Of a DNA stretch of 64,000 bases, positions 37,975 to 64,000 are shown piece after piece. The stretch covers positions 1 to 64,000 of the forward strand of contig JAGDVY010000031.1 in assembly GCA_023255875.1 (NCBI GenBank). Direction: 5' to 3'. A program made the position numbers and the translations under genes. Origin of the DNA: Hydrogenobacter sp. Lineage in GTDB: Bacteria; Aquificota; Aquificia; Aquificales; Aquificaceae. The notes under the pieces were generated by a model. That model did not search any database. It was given only the letters and a program-made list of their open reading frames with translations, and was not told where the DNA came from. The first letter of the stretch is position 1, and each line of letters begins with the position of its first letter.

Positions 37975-38145
37975 AACTTTGTATTATATGCCAAGAACTC
38001 AGAGTGTTTAAAAATTTCCAAAGCCTTTTTTTCCAAGACCTTGATCGCTCCTCCACCCAGCTAACCATCTCCTTTTGGATTTCCTTCCCTTGGTTTATCT
38101 ATGAGTAGGTTTTTCTGTGTGGTTTTCCAAGAGCCTCTTGCACTC

Positions 38146-51678: not shown

Positions 51679-51735
51679 CGCACTAACCTCCTTAAGGATA
51701 TAAGTATATAACTATAATATAATCCTGTTTGGTAA

Positions 51736-51830
51736 GGCTGTTTGAAAAATCCCAGAACATTGAGAAAAGTTGATTTCTTAGAATAGTCCTCAAAAACTCA
51801 AAAAATAAGTAAAGCTTCCGAAGGACCGAA
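51736..51830. repeat. 95-bp dispersed repeat, copy A
   Basis: GGCTGTTTGAAAAATCCCAGAACATTGAGAAAAG...AAGTAAAGCTTCCGAAGGACCGAA; 84/95 matches by hand to copy B at 63362-63456. Confidence 0.93.
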
Positions 51831-52004
51831 AAGTTATACACTGCAAACCTCGCAAGCACATATATCCTTGTGTTATCCCTATCATCCATAAAGTTTTTCA
51901 AATTCCCTGTCAACTTTGCAGTTCATAAGCTCACCTTATATTATCTCCTCATTGTAGGAAGCTTTTTGCTATTTTTCAAACAGCCTCAGTTATATTACTC
52001 ATAT

Positions 52005-63226: not shown

Positions 63227-63302
63227 TGGTGGAGCGGAGGGGACTTGAACCCCCGACCTCCTACACGCCAAGCAGGCGCTCTCCCAACTGAGCTACCGCC
63301 CC
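63227..63302 (-). tRNA. tRNA-Ala (GGC)
   Basis: Reverse complement GGGGCGGTAGCTCAGTTGGGAGAGCGCCTGCTTGGCGTGTAGGAGGTCGGGGGTTCAAGTCCCCTCCGCTCCACCA; anticodon loop TTGGCGT; CCA encoded. Confidence 0.96.
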
Positions 63303-63361
63303 TACAGCTTTCAATACTTAAATATTATCTTAAAAGACCCTCTTAGTCAAGCTGTAATGGA

Positions 63362-63456
63362 GGCTGTTTGAAAAATTCCACAGCATTGAGAAAACTTAAT
63401 TTCTTAAAATAGCCTTCAAAAGCTCAAAAAATAAGTAAAGCTTCCAAAAGACCGAA
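63362..63456. repeat. 95-bp dispersed repeat, copy B
   Basis: GGCTGTTTGAAAAATTCCACAGCATTGAGAAAAC...AAGTAAAGCTTCCAAAAGACCGAA; 11 mismatches and no gaps against copy A. Confidence 0.93.
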
Positions 63457-63466
63457 GCTAGAACTA

Positions 63467-64000
63467 TTAAAGTAAAAGCTCAAGCAGGTCTTCCAATTGG
63501 ACACCGGGCATATCCACTTTTTTCAAAAAGTCTTCCACTTTAAACTTTACTTCATCTAAGTTCATACCTTTGAGCTCTTCCTCAAGTTCTTTGATGGCAT
63601 CTTTTGGTATAAGCGTGAAATCCCCATATATCCTTATGTCTTCTACTCTATTTTCTTTAACGTAGATTTCTGCCTTGAGGAGTCCTCCCTTTACCTTCTT
63701 GACCGCGTTTCTCACATAGACACCCTCCCTTATTTTTAAAAACCTGTGCTTTCTACCTGTATCTTCAAAGAGAACTTCCTCTGAGGTCATGTGTTTCATC
63801 AGTTCATCCGCCAAATGCACAACCTGATCGTTTATTTCTCCCTCACCTTCAAAATCTATAAGCTTGGAAAATTCCTCTATTAGTATGTTCTCCGCCTCTT
63901 GGTAAGAAAAGCTCCTGCCTGTTTCTCTTTCCACCCATGTGATGTTTTCTTCAAGACTCTTATAAAGTTTATCTCTGAACTTTTCCTCTTGAACTTTGAA
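63467..64000 (-). CDS. Lipoate-protein ligase-like protein, C-terminal part (truncated by window edge)
   Basis: VKKVKGGLLKAEIYVKENRVEDIRIYGDFTLIPKDAIKELEEELKG accessory-domain pattern; the frame stays open upstream of 63934 to the window end (...EEKFRDKLYKSLEENITWVERETG). Confidence 0.7.
   Translation of the reverse strand, partial: FKVQEEKFRDKLYKSLEENITWVERETGRSFSYQEAENILIEEFSKLIDFEGEGEINDQVVHLADELMKHMTSEEVLFEDTGRKHRFLKIREGVYVRNAVKKVKGGLLKAEIYVKENRVEDIRIYGDFTLIPKDAIKELEEELKGMNLDEVKFKVEDFLKKVDMPGVQLEDLLELLL

Follow-up and report, generated by a model that had tools for sequence, protein, structure and literature searches.

Two intergenic copies of a 95-bp repeat lie in the same orientation within the stretch of Hydrogenobacter DNA analyzed here (64,000 nucleotides, in the following the window), copy A upstream of murF and copy B next to the gene for tRNA-Ala (Table 1). 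Re-alignment of 51736-51830 with 63362-63456 reproduced the gap-free match with 11 mismatches that a first-pass annotation of this DNA had described (BLAST E 9.5e-30, far beyond chance), and also the open minus-strand frame reported for copy A; the repeat begins two bases before the start given there, at 51734 and 63360.

Table 1. Coordinates of repeat copies, element ends and neighboring features; positions refer to the window unless a contig of the genome assembly (G000) is named.
Feature	Position	Strand	Basis
Copy A, 254-bp IS5-family element, non-autonomous, with internal deletion	51734..51987	- (transposase strand)	Terminal inverted repeats (TIRs); similarity to 455-bp remnant L040
TIR at transposase 3' end, AAGGCTGTTTGAAAAAT	51734..51750		Inverted-repeat search
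TIR at transposase 5' end, ATTTTTCAAACAGCCTC	51971..51987		Inverted-repeat search
Transposase gene 3'-end remnant, C-terminus ...FAVYNFSVLRKLYLFFEFLRTILRNQLFSMFWDFSNSL with its final residues encoded within the TIR	51735..51915	-	E 3.6e-25 to transposase remnant
Transposase-upstream end of copy A	51951..51987	-	97% to G002 copy
Half of 9-bp target duplication, AGTTATATT; other half at copy C36:13888	51988..51996		Exact match; 9-bp overlap in G002
Copy B, truncated, transposase 3' end only, second TIR lost	63360..63456	-	Alignment, genome matches
Copy B TIR, GAGGCTGTTTGAAAAAT	63360..63376		Terminus scan
-35 box TTGACT, 9 bp outside copy B	63345..63350	-	Flank scan
-10 box TAATAT, 17 bp from -35 box	63322..63327	-	Promoter scan
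tRNA-Ala(GGC), promoter abuts copy B	63227..63302	-	tRNA call
Copies with 47-bp IS end plus shared sequence	G000 C19:28918-29206, C4:1-104, C26:23169-23242, C42:63180-63240, C29:3016-3191

The 95-bp unit is a shortened version of a longer element, whose two ends are both present in copy A. Contrary to the statement that both copies lack clear terminal inverted repeats, copy A is bounded by 17-bp TIRs (placed by a repeat finder at 51735-51757 and 51964-51986, with 87% identity); the second TIR was overlooked because copy B is truncated. Copy A resembles a 455-bp remnant in the congener genome G002 (locus L040), which encodes a 133-residue transposase C-terminus with a DDE_Tnp_1 domain; relative to this remnant, copy A retains 181 bp at one end and 37 bp at the opposite end, with 81% identity over 199 aligned columns and 97% over 37 bp. 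The minus-strand frame of copy A, ending in ...NLKNFMDDRDNTRIYVLARFAVYNFSVLRKLYLFFEFLRTILRNQLFSMFWDFSNSL, is the same as the transposase frame of L040, and the open frame noticed earlier is therefore the C-terminus of a transposase.

The repeat belongs to a dispersed family: the 161 bp around the 95-mer have 20 matching places in the 1.25-Mb assembly of this genome (G000), the family total is about 20-27 matches in G000, and sites that match the 17-base terminus GAGGCTGTTTGAAAAAT with at most three mismatches number 44 in G000 vs. 6 for a reversed control. Of the 40 relatives searched, G002, a member of the same genus, was the only one with DNA matches to the repeat (n = 20), and an exact pattern scan of the genome collection for the left end of the element returned no match; a protein scan of the collection recovered named Aquificales relatives. 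Among the other Aquificales records with related loci are one from Sulfurihydrogenibium and one from Hydrogenobaculum.

Complete relatives occur in genome G007 as three identical elements of 1012 bp, which encode a 321-aa transposase and have inverted repeats AAGCCCGTTTAAAAAATC and GATTTTTTCAACAGGCTC, each accompanied by a 9-bp duplication (AATTATAGT, ACCTTGGTT, ATACCCGGT); the plasmid copy is ISAae1 of Aquifex aeolicus, and is annotated in its record as "IS5-like element ISAae1 family." The DDE_Tnp_1 transposase of ISAae1 shares 50% identity with the G002 remnant over about 118 residues, and ISAae1 has similar TIRs and the 9-bp duplication; it differs from the G000 copies, which lack the gene interior, and in several positions of the TIR sequence. 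No intact transposase or autonomous copy was found in assembled G000. The Pfam domain DDE_Tnp_1 (PF01609) scored 62.9 bits in the complete relative and 30.7 bits in the congener remnant (cut-off 23), and TIRs of 17-18 bp with 9-bp duplications agree with the short TIRs and fixed-length duplications of IS5 elements. The best NCBIfam model, NF033579 (IS5_2), scored 97.4 bits against a curated cut-off of 140; the IS5 placement therefore consists of a best hit and a database name, uncertified by the curated model. An element of 1012 bp with a 9-bp target duplication also fits the size, duplication length and TIR length of the IS903 group within the IS5 family, for which a 9-bp duplication, a length of about 1.05 kb and TIRs of 15-27 bp are given as group values (PMC3281130). 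The repeat is thus the terminus of a decayed ISAae1-like, IS5-family insertion sequence (IS) of Aquificaceae.

Insertion leaves a target duplication. In G002, the twelve ends of each type all pair via identical duplications (12/12 insertions), with lengths of 9 bp in nine cases, 10 bp in two and 11 bp in one; since the multicopy element is collapsed in this assembly and contigs stop 95 bp inside it, these pairs are joined by their duplications and not by contiguous sequence or reads. Together with three insertions from G007 and three from G000, 18 paired insertions were available; exactly 9 bp are duplicated in 14, 10-11 bp in three, and in one, a G000 pair, the halves match in 8 of 9 bases. 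Nine copies in G000 have both ends, at lengths of 101-261 bp. Three of these, L018 and L020 (113 bp each) and L021 (101 bp), have one and the same internal junction in three unrelated places; short, non-coding and TIR-bearing, with common internal structure at unrelated sites, they have the structure of miniature inverted-repeat elements (MITEs). As MITE-like derivatives, the short copies belong to a known class of element. Only the 155-bp copy on contig C42 has its own target duplication; the remaining eight two-ended copies, copy A among them, are old or recombined.

The missing half of the duplication at copy A is found elsewhere in the genome. In G002, murF adjoins its upstream gene; in G000, murF lies on contig C38 beside copy A, and the upstream gene lies on contig C36 beside another copy (C36:13888). 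Both G000 flanks align at 91-92% with contiguous G002 DNA, where they overlap by exactly 9 bp (L142 2823-2831), that is, by AGTTATATT; therefore, one IS had inserted upstream of murF, and its flanks were later separated. This comparison of assemblies shows copy A to be the site of a rearrangement, and recombination between copies is its presumptive cause. Dispersed intergenic "repeats" in Aquificales can thus be IS scars that mark chromosome rearrangements. A separate repeat of 56-67 bp, 93% identical, lies beside two IS remnants in G000 (C36:14126-14192 and C38:71953-72008); no third copy was found.

The targets of the family are mostly intergenic and promoter-like. Copy B lies 9 bp from the predicted tRNA-Ala promoter, TTGACT-17-TAATAT, and the insertion now divided between copy A and C36 lies 8 bp from the box TTTAAA-17-TATTAT of a divergent gene. 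When both outer flanks of the 18 paired insertions were scored against TTGACA at every offset from 0 to 49, the mean best match was 4.78 of 6 at offset 8, compared to 1.67-2.78 at all others. At least 5 of 6 bases matched at offset 8 in 14 of the 18 insertions, and in at most one at any other offset; TTGA stood at offset 8 in 13 of 18, in at most two at any other offset, and in none at offsets 0-7, 9 and 10. In four of the 18 targets, the -35 box at offset 8 is poor or absent. Counted over single ends, the first base of TTGAC lies at offset 7-10 for 13 of the 33 G000 ends and for 11 of the 29 G002 ends, where about 0.09 would be expected in each from a genome-wide TTGAC rate taken from the window (the intergenic rate would be higher); the offset comparison over paired insertions is independent of this background rate. 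Outside one element end, the offset-8 box is usually followed by a -10 box, and, at spacing 16-18, the -10 boxes that accompany target TTGAC boxes are better than those of other TTGAC sites in the window (P 4e-9). For ISAae1 in A. aeolicus, TTGAC is found at offset 8 for two of three copies. The 9-bp duplication ends with the first T of the -35 hexamer, and the -35 box is therefore rebuilt upon insertion. Judged from these flanks, insertions of the family lie at a near-fixed distance upstream of the promoter -35 box and leave the promoter intact.

These observations are very likely best explained as a whole by an ISAae1-like IS with copies A and B as remnants of its terminus, a promoter-adjacent target chosen via the transposase, and later recombination between copies. 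The transposase, supplied in trans for the short copies, would cut with a 9-bp stagger that ends at the initial T of TTGACA; once the site is repaired, the -35 box would be restored by one of the two duplication copies and the downstream promoter would keep its core, so that the element could settle directly upstream of promoters without destroying them. Later recombination between copies would then have rearranged the chromosome, with copy A as one such junction. The choice of site is presumably made by the transposase, which probably reads CTTGACW directly in the DNA without guidance from bound RNA polymerase, since one of the cuts lies inside the -35 hexamer, where sigma would sit. On balance, the ISAae1-like transposase is probably a promoter-targeting enzyme that recognizes the -35 hexamer, or else the promoter, and cuts in such a way that the 9-bp duplication restores the hexamer.

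Guidance by bound RNA polymerase or a sigma factor, instead of the TTGAC sequence, is conceivable if rather unlikely; it would accommodate the better-than-average -10 boxes of the targets and the use of some weak -35 boxes, such as the one at the copy A/C36 site, but cleavage at the initial T of the hexamer falls within the polymerase footprint, and the (C)TTGACW consensus is the strongest signal. It is improbable that selection sets the offset, with an IS that inserts widely in AT-rich DNA and survives only upstream of promoters in a compact genome. Aquificaceae genomes are compact, the mostly intergenic targets resemble real promoters, and selection against gene insertions enriches promoters among the survivors; selection explains the intergenic location of the insertions, yet it cannot hold the offset to a single base, since it predicts a broad range of distances and not the single-offset peak observed (TTGA, 13/18), which recurs in another genus. 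As to the repeat itself, a small RNA family, suggested in the first-pass annotation, or a regulatory element family would fit dispersed intergenic copies that adjoin promoters; this is highly improbable, as no Rfam match was obtained except for the neighboring tRNA, two-ended copies range in length from 101 to 261 bp, and the conserved 95 bp comprise the transposase 3' end and the IS terminus, so that an IS accounts for the sequence. A domesticated boundary element, also proposed there, is unsupported, although copy A does mark a rearrangement boundary. A local duplication of one intergenic fragment, which two copies without relatives would have indicated and which the spacing of 11.6 kb and shared orientation might suggest, is refuted by at least 20 copies, with 9-bp target duplications, on many contigs and in the congener. 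Because of the TIRs, the transposase C-terminus, the complete relatives and the target duplications, copies A and B are non-autonomous IS remnants and not members of a small RNA family; the remaining early suggestion, a non-autonomous element, was correct.

Most insertion sequences are thought to be weak in target choice, and yeast Ty elements are targeted via transcription factors to "safe-site" insertions; promoter targeting by the ISAae1-like family would be a bacterial counterpart of the latter. If so, an IS that inserts at near-fixed spacing from -35 boxes would avoid killing its host, could systematically place regulatory sequence upstream of genes, and would represent a natural enzyme whose insertions mark promoters. 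The IS family itself and MITE-like derivatives are already known. The open-access literature searched contained no mention of ISAae1, nothing relevant on promoter-targeting insertion sequences, no fixed promoter-adjacent target for the IS903 group, from which the present family would differ in this respect, and no report of a promoter-sparing target offset, which in a search limited to open-access sources is weak evidence of absence. In design, the 113-bp copies L018 and L020 resemble MITEAba12 of Acinetobacter, a non-autonomous element of 113 bp whose TIRs measure 16 bp and whose duplications measure 9 bp, and which is mobilized by the resident 1-kb DDE element ISAba12; the target duplications of MITEAba12 are AT-rich without a sequence pattern (PMC6382973), in contrast to TTGAC at offset 8 in the ISAae1-like family.

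Some copies carry additional sequence. The same 47 bp of IS end are joined to one shared sequence in at least four copies at unrelated sites (Table 1); in C19 and C29, this sequence runs into a TnpB-like gene (HTH_OrfB_IS605, slightly below cut-off). A TnpB gene was apparently carried along within the ISAae1-like IS; no intact TnpB C-terminal domain is left in the G000 assembly, and a 28-bp match to TnpB DNA in the window (38112-38139, 93%) is possibly a tiny remnant or due to chance. G000 C19:28918 and C30:1-1217 (L023, L029) are probably parts of one composite insertion, upstream of a gene resembling hypoxanthine phosphoribosyltransferase, in the order IS end, truncated tnpB, internal TIR, a porin-like gene of 253 aa without Pfam family, and TIR; on its outer flanks, the duplication halves agree in 8 of 9 bases and TTGACA lies at offset 8, and a similar, uninterrupted site is found on C14. 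The 886-bp unit C30:332-1217 was considered as the parent IS and rejected: its 253-aa gene lacks a Pfam match (porin-like by eye), a transposase is absent, and the flanks are unmatched.

Downstream of the G002 relative of gene 63467-63934, a CRISPR-like array (unit TTTCAATTCCACACGGTACATTAGAAAC; L146) takes the position that copy B and tRNA-Ala hold in the window. Finally, genome G001 contains a second IS-like family of about 14 copies with the terminus GAGGCTGTTCTAAAAAT (L150-L164); TTGACA lies 8-11 bp outside several of its ends (L152, L153, L155, L158, L161), and promoter-adjacent insertion may therefore be more widespread.
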